From: Caldilineales bacterium
GTDB lineage: Bacteria > Chloroflexota > Anaerolineae > Caldilineales > Caldilineaceae
DNA: 64,000 nucleotides
Assembly (NCBI GenBank): GCA_012271135.1
Contig: JAAXGZ010000040.1
Span: 16,879 to 80,878, forward strand
Direction of reading: 5' to 3'
How positions within the stretch are numbered: the stretch's first letter is position 1; each line of letters starts with the position of its first letter. The translations under genes were made by a program, and so were the position numbers. This document shows positions 22,888 to 58,038 of this stretch, piece by piece. The notes below the pieces were generated by a model, which was not told the DNA's origin, did no database searches, and saw only the letters and a program-made list of their open reading frames with translations.

Positions 22888-24426
22888 TCAAAGCTGCAAG
22901 GCGTTTTCGGCCAGGGCGACGGCCGTGGTCAGGGCGCGCATCTTGTTCATGGCCTCGTTGTATTCGTATGCGGGCTGGCTGTCCATGACCAGGCCGCCAC
23001 CGGCCTGCAGGACACAGGTCGCACCCAACATGGTGATGGTCCGGATGGTGATGCAGGTGTCCATGGTCCCATCGTGGTCGATGTACCCGACCACCCCGGC
23101 ATACGGTCCCCTGCGGGACGCCTCCAGTTCCTCGATGATCTCCATGGCCCGGATCTTCGGCGCGCCGCTGACAGTGCCGGCCGGCAGGGTCGCCCGGATT
23201 AGGTCGATGCCGTCCATGCCATCCCGGAGCCGTCCCTGGACATCGCTGACGATGTGCATGATGTGGCTGTAGCGTTCGATCTGCATCACGTTGGCCACCT
23301 GCACCGACCCGTAGTCGCAGACGCGCCCCAGGTCGTTGCGGCCCAGGTCCACCAGCATGACGTGCTCGGCCCGTTCCTTGGGATCCGCCAGCAGGTCCTC
23401 CGCCAGTTGCCGGTCCTCCTCAGGGGTTTCGCCGCGCCATCGCGATCCCGCGATCGGGTGCAGGCTGGCCTCGCGGTCCTCCAACCGCACATGCATCTCG
23501 GGGCTTGAGCCCACCAGGCGCATCGGCGGCCCCTTGAGGCCGGGGATGTGCGAGAAATCCAGGTAGAACATGTAGGAGGAAGGGTTGACCATCCGTAGGG
23601 CGCGGTAGATGGTGAAGGGGTCCGCCTGTGTCGCGCGCGTCTGGCGCATGCTGAGCACGCCCTGAAAGATGTCGCCGGCGATGATGTATTCCCTGGTACG
23701 GCGCACGATCTCCGCGTATTCCTCCGGGGTCTTCGAGCAGGCCCACGGAGAGTCGTCGCAAATTTCCGGCAGGTCCGGTTCAGCGAACGGTGCATGGATG
23801 CGATCGCAGATGGCGTTGATGCGCCGACAGGTGTCGGCATAGGCCCGATCCAGGTCCGCGTGGGTCAGGTCCAGGTTCACCATCACCAGGAGGCGGTGCT
23901 TGACGTGGTCGAAGATGACCAATTCGTCGCTGAACAGCATGACCATGTCCGGAGTGCCGATGAGGTCCTCGGCGGTGGCCGGCAGCTTTTCGATGAACCT
24001 GACCATGTCGTAGCCGAACATGCCCACGGCACCGCCCTTGAAGCGCGGCAGGTCCGGCACATCGACCACGGTTTCCGACGTGACCTGCGCGCGCAGGACA
24101 TCGAAGGGATCGCCGCACAGTTCCTTGACCGAGCCGTCCTGTCCGGCCAGGGTCATGCGGTCCCCGTAGGCCACCAGGCTGCGGGAGGGGTTCAGCCCGA
24201 TGAAGCTGTAGCGGCCGAACCGTTCCCCGGCCTCGGCGGATTCCAGCAGGAAGCAGGGCTGCGTAGCTTGGGATCCTTGGATTAGTTGCTGGTTGGGGTG
24301 TCGGCACAGCTTCAGGAACACGGACACGGGCGTGTCCATGTCGGCCGGGATTTCCCGATAGACGGGATATCGGGTTGCCTCCCCCCAATGTGCCTTGACC
24401 GTCTCCAAGGCCGGAACAAAATTCAC
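22888..24426 (-). CDS. trpE: anthranilate synthase component I
   Basis: This is a 512-residue enzyme that turns chorismate into anthranilate. The catalytic core includes GDIFQGVLSMR, PIAGSRWRGET, LVDLGRNDLGRVC, GTVSGAPKIRAMEI and AGGGLVMDSQPAYEY. Leu-Leu-Glu-Ser in PCFLLESAE corresponds to the feedback-inhibition motif, so Trp inhibition is expected. I chose GTG 24426, with GGGAGG seven bases upstream; the open frame continues back through the T-box leader, which is not coding. It is the first gene of the unit. Confidence 0.95.
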   Translation of the reverse strand: MNFVPALETVKAHWGEATRYPVYREIPADMDTPVSVFLKLCRHPNQQLIQGSQATQPCFLLESAEAGERFGRYSFIGLNPSRSLVAYGDRMTLAGQDGSVKELCGDPFDVLRAQVTSETVVDVPDLPRFKGGAVGMFGYDMVRFIEKLPATAEDLIGTPDMVMLFSDELVIFDHVKHRLLVMVNLDLTHADLDRAYADTCRRINAICDRIHAPFAEPDLPEICDDSPWACSKTPEEYAEIVRRTREYIIAGDIFQGVLSMRQTRATQADPFTIYRALRMVNPSSYMFYLDFSHIPGLKGPPMRLVGSSPEMHVRLEDREASLHPIAGSRWRGETPEEDRQLAEDLLADPKERAEHVMLVDLGRNDLGRVCDYGSVQVANVMQIERYSHIMHIVSDVQGRLRDGMDGIDLIRATLPAGTVSGAPKIRAMEIIEELEASRRGPYAGVVGYIDHDGTMDTCITIRTITMLGATCVLQAGGGLVMDSQPAYEYNEAMNKMRALTTAVALAENALQL

Positions 24427-24749
24427 CGCTGCACCTCCCGAAAACAAAAAACCCCGGATGCCGTTCACAACGAGACATCCGGGGACGAAATCCGGGGATT
24501 CCGCGGTGCCACCCCACTTGAGTGCCCGAGCCGTGCCCGTCACTCCTCTCTGCGGGAACGGGACTTGCGTCCGATTCCCCGCGCCCTGATAACGGTGGCG
24601 TCTCCGGCTTGCCTATTGGGAGGGTTTCCGTTCGGCTTGCGACTCACCGGTCCATTCACCTGCCTCTTGCCTGCTTCCTTTCCACCGGCCGGAAGCTCTC
24701 TGAAGGCAGACTGGCAGGCTACTAGCCCGGATCACAGTCCGTTTACATT
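24427..24749 (-). promoter_or_regulatory. T-box leader, tryptophan-specific, upstream of trpE
   Basis: Read on the minus strand, the leader holds AGAGAGC (the stem I K-turn signature), a specifier context GGTGAATGGACC with TGG (Trp codon) at 24654-24652, and the T-box core GGGTGGCACCGCGG (24514-24501). The antiterminator 3' side TTCGTCCCC follows, then a terminator hairpin. Known T-boxes bind uncharged tRNA with the matching anticodon and then form the antiterminator. Here low tryptophan should allow transcription of trpE and everything behind it. Confidence 0.9.
24446..24484 (-). terminator. T-box regulated intrinsic terminator
   Basis: The stem is CCCCGGATG (24484-24476) with CATCCGGGG (24460-24452), followed by six T and GTTTT. 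The 5' arm overlaps the CGTCCCC needed for the antiterminator, so the two structures exclude each other. Confidence 0.9.
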
Positions 24750-24897: not shown

Positions 24898-25080
24898 CTA
24901 CGGGTCGCTGCCGTCACGTTTGGCCACGGCCGTCAAGACCCTGACCACCCCAAAGCTCAGGACGGCCAGCGATGCAAATTGCACGGCGATGATGATCTGG
25001 ATATCGGAGACCATCATCCCCAGCGTGCCGCCGGACATGACCACCGAAGCCAAGCCGATCAGGTAGAACAGCCACTTCAT
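24898..25080 (-). CDS. small two-helix membrane protein
   Basis: This is a 60-residue protein with two hydrophobic segments (about 3-23 and 28-48) and a short charged tail (AVAKRDGSDP). Its ATG overlaps the stop of the upstream gene (ATGA), so translation is probably coupled. The family is not recognised. It could be a partner or membrane anchor of the secreted protein encoded just upstream. Confidence 0.65.
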   Translation of the reverse strand: MKWLFYLIGLASVVMSGGTLGMMVSDIQIIIAVQFASLAVLSFGVVRVLTAVAKRDGSDP

Positions 25081-25547
25081 CCGCCATCCTCCAACGGAAG
25101 TCGAAAGGGATCGTCATCGTATCGTCCCTCCCACCAGTTCGTACTATCCAGGAACTCGCACCCTTGCCAGAATTCGATTACGAACTCGTGATTGTAGAGC
25201 GCCTCGTACTGAAGACCCACGATACCCGTTTCGGGATCGTGGGCCACGGCGAAGATACGGATATTGTCCGTGTTGGGCCACTCGTCAAATGCTGTCTTGT
25301 ACTTGAGCACTGTAGCATCCTGTACGCCGCCATCGCTGCCCGTGATGCAGGTACCATCCGCCATGACCAGCGGCTCCGAGTCAATCCACAGGGCTTCGAT
25401 GGCGTCCACCCTTTCCGTCAAGGCCTGCAACCGTTCGGCCAGGCCCTCGAGACTGACATCACCCTGGGCCAGCAACAGGCCCGGCACGACCAGCCACAGC
25501 GCCGCCAGGCACGCCAGCGACACAACAACCAGCTTCTTTCCTTTCAT
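25077..25547 (-). CDS. secreted protein of unknown function with N-terminal coiled-coil stretch
   Basis: This is a 156-residue protein. The N-terminus is a signal peptide (MKGKKLVVVSLACLAALWLV, cleavage likely after LLLAQ). A short Leu/Glu-rich helix with coiled-coil spacing (LEGLAERLQALTERVDAIEAL) is followed by an acidic, Trp-rich domain of unknown type. ATG 25547 has GAGGGGG six bases upstream. The gene is translationally coupled to the next small membrane protein gene. Confidence 0.65.
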   Translation of the reverse strand: MKGKKLVVVSLACLAALWLVVPGLLLAQGDVSLEGLAERLQALTERVDAIEALWIDSEPLVMADGTCITGSDGGVQDATVLKYKTAFDEWPNTDNIRIFAVAHDPETGIVGLQYEALYNHEFVIEFWQGCEFLDSTNWWEGRYDDDPFRLPLEDGG

Positions 25548-25724
25548 GGGAGCCCCCTCGTGGTAGCGAACAGCGTTACCACACAGCCGAACAGCATGCA
25601 CCAGCGAGGAGGCGTGCAATGCGCCGTTCGCGCCGGTGCGAAGCCCAGAGGGCTCTTTTCGACTGTGTGGTGGATGCACCGTACCACGTGAAAACCCAGC
25701 CCATCAAATCCTGGTTATAATTTC

Positions 25725-26164: not shown

Positions 26165-27616
26165 TCACTCGCAGATATCCTTGGTCCGCAATGCGCCGGT
26201 TGCGGCCCAGGGATCGGAACCCGCGTGATCGGCGACCACGAAGTTGTGCTCCTGGAAGCCGGCGGCGCACAGGCATTCGGGAGTCCGGTCCCGTGCCTCT
26301 TCCACGACTTGCCGGACCGACTGGGCCAACTCATCGGCCACCAAGCCCTTTAGGGGTCCGATGTCCCAGAGAAACACCAGTTCGCGCAGGATCCCGGTGT
26401 TCCGGGCGGGACAGTACTTGGCTGCAGTCCTAATGCGTTCGTCGCACAGGGCGAGGTTTGGGTTGTCGAACTTGACGGCGGCGGCCGAACCCACGTCCCA
26501 GCCCAGTCGGTCCATGCAGTTCAACACGTGACTGTCCTCAATCACGATGTGGAAGTTGCGCATGTAGTCCCGGAAGGCTCCACTGTCGACTTCGGCGTTC
26601 AGGCACCCAATCACGGTGTTGCAGACCTCAACCGGATGCGCGGACGACGACTCCAAATAGGAGGTGAAATCCACCGTCAGGTATGGGGTACCGACAGGTT
26701 TGAAACCGGGTCCGTCAATCTCGATACTGGGCATGGACCGGAAGATTGATCTGGGGGACCTGCTTTCCCAGGCCTTGAGGTATCGATCCAGCAGCTTGGC
26801 GTTGGTGCGCGCAGCCGAGTCGGCGTCCAGCACGTTGCTGATGCTGTCTGTGTAGTCGAGCAGGATGAAGCCGCGCAGGTCTTTCCGGACGAAGTCCATG
26901 GTGCGGTAGGCGCTGGAGCGCGGCACGTGTGTCTCGAACCAGTCCCGGAGGGCGTCGTCGGCACACTCCCACATGAGAGCCCACACATTGCTGTAGAAGC
27001 AACTGTCGGCTGCCCCCCAGAGTTCGGAGACCTGGGTCCAGCCACTGCTTTTGAACAGTACGCTTGCACAATCGGCCGCGTTGTAGCAGAAGTGGAGTTT
27101 TTCGGCACACTCGTCGTCGCCCGGTTCGCAGTAGGGCGAGATCTCGAACGCCGGTGTCAGCGTGAAGTTGGGCCAGACGAGGTCGTAGATGCGGTGCTTG
27201 GCGCCCCAACAGGTGTGGAACGCGGCGTTGCGGCTGTTTTCGTCGGCCGCGACCGGGGCACTGCACATCTCAAGCAGGCCCCTCCAGGCCTCGGTTGGAT
27301 CTTTCTTGTCGGGGTTGGGAATCGTGCCGTTCCGAATCGTGACCTGTACCGAGCAGTGGATGTCCAGGCTGGTGCACTGGCCCGGTGCCAGTATCGAAAA
27401 GTTGGCTGTCTTCTCGGTTGCGGACAGGATTTCGAAGTAGCCGTCGGCGAAGTCGGTCGCGGAGGCAGCCTGTACGGAACTCCCGAACACGAACATCAGC
27501 AGAATGGCAGCCAGCAGTCCGACGACTGTGCCGCCGAACCATGGTTGCAGGGACCAAGATCGCGTAGGGCTCGGCGACGTTGGGGTTGGACAACTGGTGG
27601 TCAAGGGAGAGAGCAT
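26165..27616 (-). CDS. secreted 18-cysteine protein of unknown function, paralogue A
   Basis: This is a 483-residue protein. A long N-region precedes a signal helix (about 27-50, GTVVGLLAAILLMFVFG) with likely cleavage near VQAASA. The mature part has 18 cysteines, every one of which has a counterpart in the paralogue at 28136-29464. Blocks shared with it include SPYCEPGDDECAEKL, VCNTVIGC, CMDRLGWDV, ALCDERI, RDRTPECLCAAGF and a terminal DIC[ED]. An even number of conserved Cys suggests nine disulfides in an extracytoplasmic domain. I recognise no family. No ribosome-binding site is evident before ATG 27616. Confidence 0.82.
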   Translation of the reverse strand: MLSPLTTSCPTPTSPSPTRSWSLQPWFGGTVVGLLAAILLMFVFGSSVQAASATDFADGYFEILSATEKTANFSILAPGQCTSLDIHCSVQVTIRNGTIPNPDKKDPTEAWRGLLEMCSAPVAADENSRNAAFHTCWGAKHRIYDLVWPNFTLTPAFEISPYCEPGDDECAEKLHFCYNAADCASVLFKSSGWTQVSELWGAADSCFYSNVWALMWECADDALRDWFETHVPRSSAYRTMDFVRKDLRGFILLDYTDSISNVLDADSAARTNAKLLDRYLKAWESRSPRSIFRSMPSIEIDGPGFKPVGTPYLTVDFTSYLESSSAHPVEVCNTVIGCLNAEVDSGAFRDYMRNFHIVIEDSHVLNCMDRLGWDVGSAAAVKFDNPNLALCDERIRTAAKYCPARNTGILRELVFLWDIGPLKGLVADELAQSVRQVVEEARDRTPECLCAAGFQEHNFVVADHAGSDPWAATGALRTKDICE

Positions 27617-28011
27617 GGCGTTTTGGCGAAAGTGTTGAAGGCTTGGCAGGCCAAGACGGGCGTGTCCAATGGCTGTTGAAGGTCGATGGATGGGACAGCG
27701 AGTCGCGGCATGGCACCAGACGTCCGCGTTTCCTGATCGACTCGGTTTGGATAAAGGCCGGTCTGGGATGATGACTCAATTGCTGGCGATTGTGGCTGCA
27801 AATTTCACCGGTATCGATGCAGGGCACCGCGTCGGTGGTCCCGAGGCCCCCGCTTGCTCCAGGGAGAATGATGCGGAGCCCCCAGTGGGTTCACCGTGTG
27901 CACGGACCGATCCGTGCGCACCTCGGGTTGGCCCATTGACGTCCGCGGAGCGAGGTGCACCAGAAACGGGATGGCACCGCATCGGCCGCAAGCCGGGTTG
28001 CCGATCAAAAT
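27617..28011. other. gap between the two 18-Cys paralogues
   Basis: About 395 bases with no recognised gene or repeat. It should contain the promoter of paralogue A, but no convincing -35/-10 pair is visible. Confidence 0.4.
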
Positions 28012-28047
28012 GCCCCGGACACAGTTCCGCGCAACTGTGTCCGGGGC
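28012..28047 (-). terminator. terminator of 18-Cys paralogue B
   Basis: GCCCCGGACACAGTT pairs perfectly with AACTGTGTCCGGGGC (15 bp) across six bases. On the minus strand it is followed by ATTTTGATC. It lies 88 bases after the stop of the gene at 28136-29464. Confidence 0.7.
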
Positions 28048-28135
28048 TTGGTCAAGTCCGACAAAAGAAGTCAAACCCGGTTCGCCGGAGCGGTCGACAC
28101 ATCGGGGCTTGAGCCGTGCCAGGCTCCGGGTCCGG

Positions 28136-29464
28136 TCAGTCGCAAATGTCCTCCGTCCGCATTGCACCGGAGCGCTCCCAGGGATCGTCCATCGTTTCGG
28201 GGGTGACGATGAAATTCTTCTCCTCGAATCCCGCGGCGCACAGGCACTCCGGAGTCCGGTCGCGGGCCCGTTCCACCTGCAGGCGCAGCGACTGGGCGTA
28301 GGAGTCGGGGAGGATTCCCCGCAGGAGCCCGTTGTCCCACATCTCGAACAGATCGGCGCCGGCGCCGGTGTCCTTGGCCGGGCAGACTTCGTTGGCGGTC
28401 TTCATCCGTTCGTCACAGGCGATCAGGTCGGCGTTGTCGAAGGGGATGGCGTGATCATCTTCCACGTCCCATCCGGCCCGGTCCATGCAGCGCAGCACCG
28501 AACTGTCCTGGATGATGATGTGCAGGTTCTGCATGTAGCTCCGGAAGGTGTTGCTGTGGGTTGCCACGGTCACGCAGCCAATGGTCGTGTTGCAGACCTG
28601 GTACGGCCCGGTCGATTCCAGGAAGGCCGTGAAGTTGACCGTCAGGTACTCGTCCTTGGTCAGGCGGAAGCTGGGCCCGTGGGTGTCCACATCGTCCACC
28701 GAGGCGTAGATGGAGGTTGGGGTCCGGGACGCCCATATCCGCTGGTACCGTTCAAGTACAGTCTCGGATGAGCTTGTGGACGACTGGTCACCGACATCAT
28801 CCAGGTCGTCTTCGTAGTCCTCCAGGGTGAAGCCCCGGTCTTCGTCCTCCTCGTCCTCCAGGTCGTCATAGTCGTCGTTGCGACCCATGTTGTCATCGAG
28901 CCAGTCATCAAAGGCTTCGTCGATGCACTCCCAGACGTCGTCCTCGTCATCGTCGTACAGACACGAACCGGCCTCGTCCCACAGGTCGCCCACTTGGGTC
29001 CACGGCTTTCTGCCGTAGCTGTTGTCATCGCAGTCGTTGGCGTTGAAGCAAATGCGCAGCTCCTCGGCGCACTCGTCGTCACCACTCTTGCAGTACGGAG
29101 TGATTTCAAAGTCGTCATCGGGGTTGATGGTGGGCCAGGTCACGGTGAAGCCGGAACCCCAACAATCCTCGAAATCCTGATAGCGCCCGTCACCGCTGCT
29201 GGCGTCGCTGCAGGCCTCCAGATCGTCCTCCCAGTTACTGGCAGGTGTCCCCGACACCCTCACCGTGCAGTTTTCGTCTGTGTCGTCGCAACTGGTGTTG
29301 ATTGAGAAGTAGGCGGTACTGGACGACTTTTCGACTATGTCAAAGTAACTGCCGTGGAAATTGGTTTCGGTCGCCAGCGCGACGGATGTCATGCCGGCTG
29401 CGATCAGGATGGTGCCCAGCAACACCAACAGGAACCTGGCTGGGAATTTCGAGTGTCTGTTCAT
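28136..29464 (-). CDS. secreted 18-cysteine protein with Asp/Glu-rich segment, paralogue B
   Basis: This is a 442-residue protein with a clear signal peptide (about 10-31, cleavage near ALA) and AGAGGAG seven bases before ATG 29464. Its 18 cysteines (59, 66, 85, 101, 125, 132, 139, 145, 168, 180, 291, 297, 326, 350, 361, 407, 409, 441) all match paralogue A. Residues about 170-226 are strongly acidic (DDDEDDVWEC, then YDDLEDEEDEDRG), whereas the aligned part of A is ordinary. This suggests Ca2+ or other cation binding, or a surface-charge role, in B only. No known family is recognised. Confidence 0.85.
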   Translation of the reverse strand: MNRHSKFPARFLLVLLGTILIAAGMTSVALATETNFHGSYFDIVEKSSSTAYFSINTSCDDTDENCTVRVSGTPASNWEDDLEACSDASSGDGRYQDFEDCWGSGFTVTWPTINPDDDFEITPYCKSGDDECAEELRICFNANDCDDNSYGRKPWTQVGDLWDEAGSCLYDDDEDDVWECIDEAFDDWLDDNMGRNDDYDDLEDEEDEDRGFTLEDYEDDLDDVGDQSSTSSSETVLERYQRIWASRTPTSIYASVDDVDTHGPSFRLTKDEYLTVNFTAFLESTGPYQVCNTTIGCVTVATHSNTFRSYMQNLHIIIQDSSVLRCMDRAGWDVEDDHAIPFDNADLIACDERMKTANEVCPAKDTGAGADLFEMWDNGLLRGILPDSYAQSLRLQVERARDRTPECLCAAGFEEKNFIVTPETMDDPWERSGAMRTEDICD

Positions 29465-29532
29465 GGTGTCTCTCCTCTGGAGGCGTGAGGGACTGGTTGT
29501 GTTGTGGCGTGAGTGTCAGGTTGCCGACCGGG

Positions 29533-30765
29533 CTACTTCTTGACGGCCCAGTTGACAATCGCGGTGGCATCGGCCGCGGCGTCGAAGTATTCGACCCGGA
29601 CCGTGCGCGTGCCGTAGCGCGGCGTGTAGTCCCGGTAGACAAGCGTGGCGGCCTGCCCTTGCCATTGGTTGATGATCAACTGATCGTCAACCCAGACTCG
29701 AATGCCGTCGTCGGCAATCGCCATGAACCGATACTCTTGGCCGGTGAACTGGAAGGTACCGGTCCACCGCACACTGAAGTCGTTGGGGATGCCGGCTCCG
29801 GGCGAGGCCTGCTGCCAGTGGAAGGCAATCTGGTTGTCTTGCCTGGTCACCACTGGAGCGCCGTCCAGACTGGTGTTGGCGAAGTACTGCGCGGTCCACG
29901 GACCCACACCGTAGTAGCCGGCCAGAGGTGCCGCTGCCGGGGGTGGAGTCGGTGCGGGCGCTGGGGCCGGTGTCGGTGCAGGGGCAGGAGCGGGCACTGG
30001 TGCAGGAGCGGGTACGGGTGCAGGAGCGGGTACGGGTGCGGGCGTCCAGGGCTGCTGGGTTGGCACTGGTCCTGAGCAGGAAGCGGGAAGCCAAATGCGT
30101 TGCCCTGTGTAGACCAGGCTCGGATTGGCAATGTTGTTGACCTGGGCCAGGAAACTGGTCGCGCAGCCGGTGCTCAGGGCGATTCGAGCCAGGAAGTCAC
30201 CCCGTTGGATCGTGTACCAGCGGCCCTCGCCCTGTCCGGCCTGCGGAACATCCTGCCGGGATGCAGTGGACGGGGTCGTGATTTGCGTACCGCTGGACGG
30301 CGTTCCGCCAGTACCTCCAGGAATGCACAGCTCCGTGCCTGCTGCCAGCCACGAGACCACCGACTTGTTGTTGACCAAGGCCAGGGTGGAAGCTTCCACA
30401 TCGAATTCCGCCGCAATGGAGGCGAAGGTGTCCCCGGCTACCGTGGTGTAGGTATTCGGACACAAGGCTATGACTGTGCCGGGCTCCGCTTCCTCTTCTA
30501 CCTCCTCACCGGGCAGCAGGATCGTAGCCCCCACGTAGATCTGGTTGGCGTTCCCGATGCTGGGGTTCAACGCCAGGATCTCTTCAATCGTGGTGTCGTG
30601 ATCCTCGGCGATCTGGCGAAGACTGTCGCCGGATCGGATGATGTACGTCGTCGTACCCGATTGAGCCAGGACGACGGTTGACATAACAACTAGGGACAGC
30701 ACAAGATGTACCGCGCCGAGGGCCAACACCCTGGCAAGGGGTCTCGCAACAATCGATTTCAACAT
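29533..30765 (-). CDS. secreted protein with three LysM repeats and a C-terminal PA14-like domain
   Basis: This is a 410-residue protein. A signal peptide (about 10-34) is followed by LysM domains at about 40-86, 104-150 and 183-228 (for example YIIRSGDSLRQIAEDHDTT and YTIQRGDFLARIA). A Pro/Ala repeat linker spans about 235-281 and a PA14-like beta-barrel about 285-410 (YFANTSLDG, FSVRWTGTFQF, VRVEYFDA). LysM binds peptidoglycan or chitin; PA14 usually binds carbohydrate. It is probably a wall-bound or secreted glycan-binding protein. ATG 30765 follows AGGAG at seven bases; a GTG... start farther up would extend into non-family sequence. Confidence 0.85.
   Translation of the reverse strand: MLKSIVARPLARVLALGAVHLVLSLVVMSTVVLAQSGTTTYIIRSGDSLRQIAEDHDTTIEEILALNPSIGNANQIYVGATILLPGEEVEEEAEPGTVIALCPNTYTTVAGDTFASIAAEFDVEASTLALVNNKSVVSWLAAGTELCIPGGTGGTPSSGTQITTPSTASRQDVPQAGQGEGRWYTIQRGDFLARIALSTGCATSFLAQVNNIANPSLVYTGQRIWLPASCSGPVPTQQPWTPAPVPAPAPVPAPAPVPAPAPAPTPAPAPAPTPPPAAAPLAGYYGVGPWTAQYFANTSLDGAPVVTRQDNQIAFHWQQASPGAGIPNDFSVRWTGTFQFTGQEYRFMAIADDGIRVWVDDQLIINQWQGQAATLVYRDYTPRYGTRTVRVEYFDAAADATAIVNWAVKK
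29982..30040 (-). repeat. 18-bp tandem repeat in the Pro/Ala linker
   Basis: The unit GTGCAGGAGCGGGTACGG occurs at 30000-30017 and 30018-30035, with partial copies on both sides. It encodes part of the APVP linker repeat. Such tracts can change length by slippage. Confidence 0.75.
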
Positions 30766-31124
30766 CGTGTGACTCCTCGGTTTCTCCAACGATCAGGGTG
30801 CTTGCCTCGGCAATGTCCGCATGATTCGGTCATGTCCCCGACTTCGGGGCAGACCCGTCCCCGTCTATCGCCAAGCTTTAGCCGGCCCGGACGCGTCCGT
30901 TTGGGAGCGAGTCCCGCGCCTGCATGCGAGCACAGCGACTCAGGGTACAGGTGCCCTGTTTATATAAGACGACCGAATGTTGATATTGTTACGTAATTAC
31001 AATGCACAAGGTGGCCGTGGGTGACCTCAAATCCGGGATTCCGGCTGACGGGCACGGTGCGTCCGGAAACAGTGACAGACTCATCCACTTGCTCCCGGCC
31101 ACACAACGACACTTGGGATCAAGC
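30766..31124. other. divergent intergenic region, AT-rich core
   Basis: This gap separates the LysM gene (-) from the ABC-F gene (+). Around 30960-31000 the sequence becomes AT-rich (TTTATATAAG, and the partly symmetric ATTGTTACGTAATTACAAT). Promoters for both genes probably lie here, but no clean -35/-10 pair can be chosen. The ABC-F frame is also open from ATG 31002, which would add 41 residues. Confidence 0.4.
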
Positions 31125-57294: not shown

Positions 57295-58038
57295 ATGGCC
57301 TCTTCGCTCTTGCCCCGCCCTCTCTGGCAGGCCCTGGCCGCCGTTGCTGTCTTGGTCTTGATGTTGATGCTCGCGGCCTGCCGGGCCGATGCTCCTGACG
57401 AACCGGTCCCCCTCGTCGCCGGCGAGGAGCTGGCCCAGGCGGCCGAAATTGCGCCGGACGAACTGCCCGTGGGCCATACCGGGGAGGGATTTCTCTACCT
57501 TGGGTCCCCGGAAGCACCCCTGGTGCTGTACGAGATCTTCAACGCCAATTGCCCGGGATGCGGCAACCATCATCGGTCCCGGTTGCCGTCCCTGGTACGG
57601 GAACATGTCCAAAGCGGCGTGGTCCAGATGGTCATGGTGGATTTGGCCATCAGTCCGGAGTGGGGCGAGCAGGCGCATTTCACGGCCTGGTGTCTGGGCC
57701 AGCAGGTCGGCGCCCAAAGTCAATGGCAGTTTTGGACGGATCTGTTCGAAGGACAGGCCTCCTGGATCGCCGAAGGCGAGGCATTCTCGCTGCGGCTGGC
57801 CGACGAGGCGGGAGCCGAAGCGTCGGAGTTGCGAACCTGCATCGAATCGCAGGCTCCCGCCGCGGTGGCCGAACTTCAGGCCATTGCCGAGGATCGGCTG
57901 CTGCCGGAGCGATGGTCCACGCCCGTCTTCCGCATTGAGGACAGGACCGGCCGTTTCCTGGCGTCGCAGGTTGGCTCACCGTCGCTGGAGGCCTGGAACC
58001 GGCTCGTGGAGCAGGCCTTGGCCGTGGCTTCCTGGTAG
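57295..58038 (+). CDS. DsbA-like thioredoxin-fold lipoprotein
   Basis: This is a 247-residue protein. A hydrophobic signal ends in the lipobox LAAC (Cys29). The thioredoxin-like domain has the CPGC active site at 86-89 (FNANCPGCGNHH) and an extra Cys pair in WCLGQQ and RTCIES. The role is probably disulfide formation or reduction in the envelope. ATG 57295 gives the signal peptide; the longer open frame from 57202 is not protein-like. It is convergent with phyH. Confidence 0.85.
   Translation: MASSLLPRPLWQALAAVAVLVLMLMLAACRADAPDEPVPLVAGEELAQAAEIAPDELPVGHTGEGFLYLGSPEAPLVLYEIFNANCPGCGNHHRSRLPSLVREHVQSGVVQMVMVDLAISPEWGEQAHFTAWCLGQQVGAQSQWQFWTDLFEGQASWIAEGEAFSLRLADEAGAEASELRTCIESQAPAAVAELQAIAEDRLLPERWSTPVFRIEDRTGRFLASQVGSPSLEAWNRLVEQALAVASW

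Follow-up and report, generated by a model that had tools for sequence, protein, structure and literature searches.

A Genus-Restricted Family of Predicted Secreted Proteins with 18 Conserved Cysteines and a Recombining N-Terminal Module in Caldilineaceae

The stretch analyzed here (the window, 64,000 nucleotides) comes from a Caldilineales bacterium (GenBank assembly GCA_012271135.1, contig JAAXGZ010000040.1, positions 16,879 to 80,878 of the forward strand) and forms part of contig C82 in a genome of 4.05 Mb. It carries two adjacent genes on the minus strand, separated by ~520 bp, whose products we call Cys18 proteins: an A type of 483 amino acids (26165–27616), which lies toward trpE, and a B type of 442 amino acids (28136–29464). 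A reading made from the DNA letters alone (the sequence-only reading) had described a tandem pair in which all 18 mature cysteines correspond, and this description stands: both open reading frames are present, and homology between the two proteins runs the full length of the mature sequence (BLASTP score 357 bits, with 43% identity across 450 residues). Over 411 aligned mature positions, 44.5% of the residues are identical and 18/18 cysteines coincide, for which the chance is ~5e-7 if cysteines are assumed to be no better conserved than the remaining residues. The cysteine motifs quoted in that reading occur in both proteins; the A-type protein has a 19th cysteine (C9) within its N-terminal leader, a minor correction to the count. 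The ratio of nonsynonymous to synonymous divergence (dN/dS) among A-type orthologues is ~0.15–0.2, which supports real coding. As read from the sequence, both proteins begin with a hydrophobic export-type signal that ends in an A-x-A-like motif, and both lack a lipobox and a C-terminal anchor.

The Cys18 protein is modular, with a predicted signal, an N module (Cys 1–10), an acidic or proline-rich linker, and a C module (Cys 11–18). In the B-type protein, the N module spans approximately residues 32–192 (28889–29371, minus strand), and the C module, which is the conserved part, spans approximately residues 265–442 (28139–28672, minus strand). The acidic stretch and the start of the linker cover approximately residues 168–229 (28778–28963, minus strand) and overlap the last N-module cysteine; 32 of the 66 residues around positions 167–230 are aspartate or glutamate, in agreement with the acidic stretch noted earlier in one copy. 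The A-type protein has the same order of a leader and signal sequence, a 10-cysteine N module, a linker, and an 8-cysteine C module (26168–26713, minus strand). The boundary between the modules is drawn from a natural fusion in a sister genome (G002; L034:1-1222, minus strand), in which the N module has exactly 10 cysteines and a proline/threonine-rich linker with an SH3_3 domain (E 2.4e-6) takes the position of the C module. This fusion adjoins nadD and obgE, where the three other genomes have no such gene. Every complete copy in the four genomes retains the full set of 18 cysteines, which make up 18 of the 63 invariant alignment columns. The sequence-only reading took the cysteines shared by the window pair to point to a fixed disulfide fold; the even number of cysteines in each module (10 + 8) and the natural split in the fusion fit disulfides within each module, so the disulfide part of that claim is strengthened and the single fold gives way to two probable disulfide modules. 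No similarity between the N and C modules was seen when it was looked for, and their origin by internal duplication is rejected on that ground. Ca2+ binding by the B-type protein, also raised earlier, finds no sequence support: no member matches a Pfam EF-hand or dockerin model or another Ca-binding family, and the acidic run, present in all other B-type copies and in two chimeric copies described below, is missing from the A type and from unconverted copies at the second locus. EF-hand-type binding was rejected accordingly.

Neither the two proteins nor a 16-member alignment of the family matched Pfam, NCBIfam, PHROGs, or PADLOC at or near threshold, the best weak matches being to DUF4179 (E 0.006) and cEGF (E 0.056), each in one or two members. 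Searches of Protein Data Bank chains with phmmer and hmmsearch gave best E values of 0.17–0.32, to unrelated chains. These results support the proposal of an undescribed extracellular family. The family, its putative 18-cysteine scaffold, and the exchange of modules between two loci described below are new to the resources searched. The family profile matches all four genomes of one genus, the window's genome among them (G000–G003), and finds no credible relative outside that genus among the remaining genomes of the three sets searched (46 Caldilineaceae, 396 class, and 400 phylum); weak matches in G375 and G051 (E 0.04 and 0.8) are taken as chance. When 84,980 species genomes were scanned with patterns drawn from the N module alone, only the same genus was returned, and the phages, plasmids, and viral contigs searched contain no relative. 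The sister-genome records that carry names are the Caldilineaceae metagenome-assembled genomes (MAGs) SB0661_bin_34, IRC1_bin_30, and bin34. Of these, bin34 (MPMO) was obtained from the sponge Aplysina aerophoba (PMC5649159). Sponge symbiosis is thus stated for bin34 and is something we infer for the other three genomes, including the window's own, whose bacterium is most likely sponge-dwelling.

Cys18 genes occupy two conserved loci. Locus 1, which includes the window pair, runs from an ABC-F gene through a gene for a LysM-PA14 protein and one to three B copies to one A copy; the B type is present once in the window and two or three times in the sister genomes, and the A copy is found in all four. 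The window and G001 have trpE on the A-copy flank, and in G001–G003 the A copy is followed by a transporter gene. Locus 2 has the order lon, folD-like gene, LysM-PA14 gene, one Cys18 copy, and AAA-ATPase_like gene, and the third site, beside nadD and obgE, is peculiar to G002. There are three copies in the window's genome, five in G001, four in G003, and six in G002 (two of the six cut by contig ends), where a further contig-end stub is present. Tandem copy number thus varies among the four genomes. Degenerate PA14-domain tails stand just before the second B copies in G001, G002, and G003 (L026:6529-6744, L028:6912-7127, and L029:9962-10164), and these relics mark growth of the array by tandem duplication.

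Comparisons between copies reveal a mosaic history. Background synonymous divergence (dS) between the genomes, taken from lon and the ABC-F gene, is 0.16–0.25. For the locus-2 orthologues C39 (G001) and C63 (G002), dS is 0.08 in the linker and 0.12 in the C module but 1.5 for N1, the first half of the N module; their nucleotide identity is 98% in the leader, falls to 41–73% in N1, and then returns to 93–100%. N1 is likewise synonymously saturated between copies 2 of G001 and G002 (C-module dS 0.15) and between copies 1 and 3 of G001 (C-module dS 0.26), and a similar excess of N-module over C-module divergence extends to G001 copy 2 against G002 copy 3 and to G001 copy 1 against G003 copy 1. 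At four-fold sites, the difference between modules in the mosaic pairs is significant (Fisher p = 3e-7 to 7e-5, and 4e-7 to 7e-5 for the four pairs of numbered copies). Many copies are mosaics, near-saturated synonymously in the N module against copies whose C modules differ at the background level; the N module varies most strongly over Cys 1–4. C39 and C63 are chimeras, grouping with locus-1 B copies in the N-module tree and with locus 2 in the C-module tree (support 100/100 both ways), and the spacer upstream of C39 is of the locus-1 type. Together, these divergence and tree patterns show that the predicted N module is exchanged by recombination among copies and among species while the C module is not exchanged along with it; the leader, and in some cases the upstream spacer, moves with the N module. 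Tandem repeats in MAG assemblies call for caution at locus 1; at locus 2 the same chimeric junction occurs in two independently assembled MAGs, and misassembly is an unlikely source of it.

The gene directly upstream of the B copy encodes a secreted protein with three LysM domains and a PA14 domain (29533–30789, minus strand) and lies 68 bp away. The four genomes G000–G003 all keep this order at locus 1 (in G002 on contig C329) as well as at locus 2, at a distance of 67–97 bp where measured. The spacer (29465–29532, minus strand) has a conserved purine-rich motif resembling a ribosome-binding site and is of the type also present upstream of the chimeric C39 in G001. Between the B and A genes, a strong terminator-like hairpin with a 15 bp stem is predicted (28012–28047, minus strand). 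Given this hairpin and the short upstream distance, the LysM-PA14 and B genes probably form one transcription unit, and the arrangement suggests a separate one for A. The LysM-PA14 proteins are exported like Cys18, have other domains, and share no sequence similarity with it; their relatives are ordinary, being carried by all 46 Caldilineaceae genomes searched, in contrast to the restriction of Cys18 to one genus. PA14 domains are often carbohydrate-binding. LysM (CBM50) is the most abundant carbohydrate-binding module in Caldilineae and Anaerolineae symbionts of sponges (PMC6306507). At locus 2, the neighboring AAA-ATPase_like genes (L030, L031, L032, and L033) have dS of 0.7–0.8 between genomes, above that of surrounding genes; L033, in which a PF09820 match was tested, has two of them in a row.

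We tentatively favor, at somewhat below even confidence, an explanation in which Cys18 is exported and displayed outside the cell as a disulfide-rigid protein, and its N module would be a recognition surface diversified by recombination. The protein may sit on the cell envelope or within the matrix around the cell, held there by the C module, by the co-encoded LysM-PA14 protein, or by both; the fusion protein has a linker and an SH3 domain, a module type common in bacterial wall binding, where its relatives have the C module. No anchor domain was matched in the Cys18 proteins, and SH3_3 in the one variant and the LysM-PA14 neighbor bear on anchoring only indirectly. The disulfides would fix the scaffold while the loops between cysteines vary, and the N module would face outward. 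Many old N-module alleles could then be kept by selection for diversity, acting through a phage receptor or decoy, contact with a host or grazer, or recognition of neighbors. A stronger version, which we regard as doubtful, is that the symbiont has a dedicated system of recombination-driven diversification for a disulfide-scaffolded secreted recognition protein, with a cysteine-locked N module, swappable loops, and a conserved C module serving contact with the sponge host, phages, or rival strains.

Several observations weigh against the display explanation. AlphaFold2 models are of low confidence (pLDDT 52 for the full-length B-type protein of the window, W_B, and 46 for its C module alone) and gave no Foldseek match at E <= 0.001 and a VIA Z of at most 3.4; given the poor models, a distant relation to a known fold may remain. 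A significant excess of N-module divergence is absent from the A-type copies and from the pairs W_B and G3_1, G2_3 and G3_2, and G0_C94 and G3_C105. The N-module dN/dS of ~0.2–0.3 does not point to recent positive selection, and with dS itself raised, a rapid selective origin of the N-module diversity is unsupported; that diversity reflects old alleles introduced through recombination. The SH3 fusion was seen once and runs off a contig end, and the LysM-PA14 association is one of gene order only. A search for a VKOR homolog found none, and each of the four genomes encodes DsbA-like Thioredoxin_4 proteins. One such domain (E 1e-14) is encoded in the window at 57493–57948 on the plus strand and belongs to a possible oxidative-folding helper.

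Modular, recombining secreted proteins are already a known kind. Recombination-diversified surface proteins of bacteria include Neisseria pilE/pilS, Borrelia vlsE, and mosaic streptococcal surface proteins, and Cys18 is like these in being encoded by mosaic genes, in pairing a variable with a conserved part, in having conserved flanks on either side of the variable segment, and in occurring in several copies per genome. It differs in its unrelated sequence, in the conservation of every cysteine of the variable part, in a surface location that is for Cys18 a prediction, and in the lack of a detected store of silent partial cassettes: a profile search of the four genomes for such donors turned up, apart from whole genes, only the SH3 fusion and fragments at contig edges, with some room left by MAG gaps. 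Targets of diversity-generating retroelements have a hypervariable segment and a dedicated reverse transcriptase in the genome. Cys18 resembles them in having a hypervariable segment inside a conserved protein, whereas its variable part is N-terminal and contains indels. Retroelement diversification was rejected on a search of the four genomes for RVT_1, which has no match in G000 or G003 and one each in G001 and G002, on other contigs. Polymorphic toxins are domain-swapping secreted proteins with a variable C-terminal toxin domain and an adjacent immunity gene; Cys18 is likewise secreted, modular, and recombining, but its N-terminal module varies and its C-terminal module is conserved, it has no toxin domain match, and no immunity-like open reading frame was seen between the tandem copies.

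These last differences bear on the possibility, which we consider unlikely, that Cys18 is a freely secreted effector or an antimicrobial or host-directed protein with an active C module and a variable N module that picks the target. Such a protein could well be secreted, cysteine-rich, tandemly expanded, and genus-restricted in a lineage with a sponge-derived member, and one conserved C module combined with differing N modules would suit it; however, each copy lacks an immunity-like gene beside it, no toxin family is matched, the LysM-PA14 neighbor is conserved, and the C module is dispensable in the SH3 fusion. We assign the same low probability to a structural role in which Cys18 is disulfide-crosslinked matrix or sheath material of the envelope and neutral recombination among the tandem repeats would account for both its copy number and its mosaicism. 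The unequal-crossover relics in the array, the acidic composition, the LysM-PA14 neighbor, and the purifying dN/dS would all be expected of such a protein, but near-saturation confined to the N module, against a background dS of ~0.2, needs imported old alleles beyond neutral exchange among the few copies seen, and the A and B types stay distinct. Marginally less probable in our view is that Cys18 is a glycan-binding or degradation accessory that acts, in concert with the LysM-PA14 protein, on polysaccharides of the sponge matrix or the wall, its N module setting sugar specificity: the conserved neighbor, the frequent carbohydrate binding of PA14, and the abundance of LysM in sponge symbionts speak for it, yet the Cys18 proteins match no catalytic or carbohydrate-binding family, and LysM/PA14 relatives are far more widespread than Cys18.

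Sponge symbionts are hard to cultivate, and the proteins with which they face hosts, phages, and neighbors are largely unknown. A genus-specific secreted family in which an invariant cysteine scaffold is combined with a recombining N module points to selection for diversity acting on a surface, and the Cys18 genes offer concrete proteins for expression, localization, and testing, as well as a two-domain protein family without recognized sequence relatives.

Two further features lie beyond the A-type gene in the window. A secreted orphan protein of 200 amino acids is encoded between trpE and the A-type gene (25077–25679, minus strand); it carries a signal sequence and is matched by neither Pfam nor NCBIfam. 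A T-box leader (RF00230, 97.5 bits; 24478–24744, minus strand) is located directly upstream of trpE (22888–24543, minus strand), which makes tRNA-sensing control of tryptophan synthesis likely.
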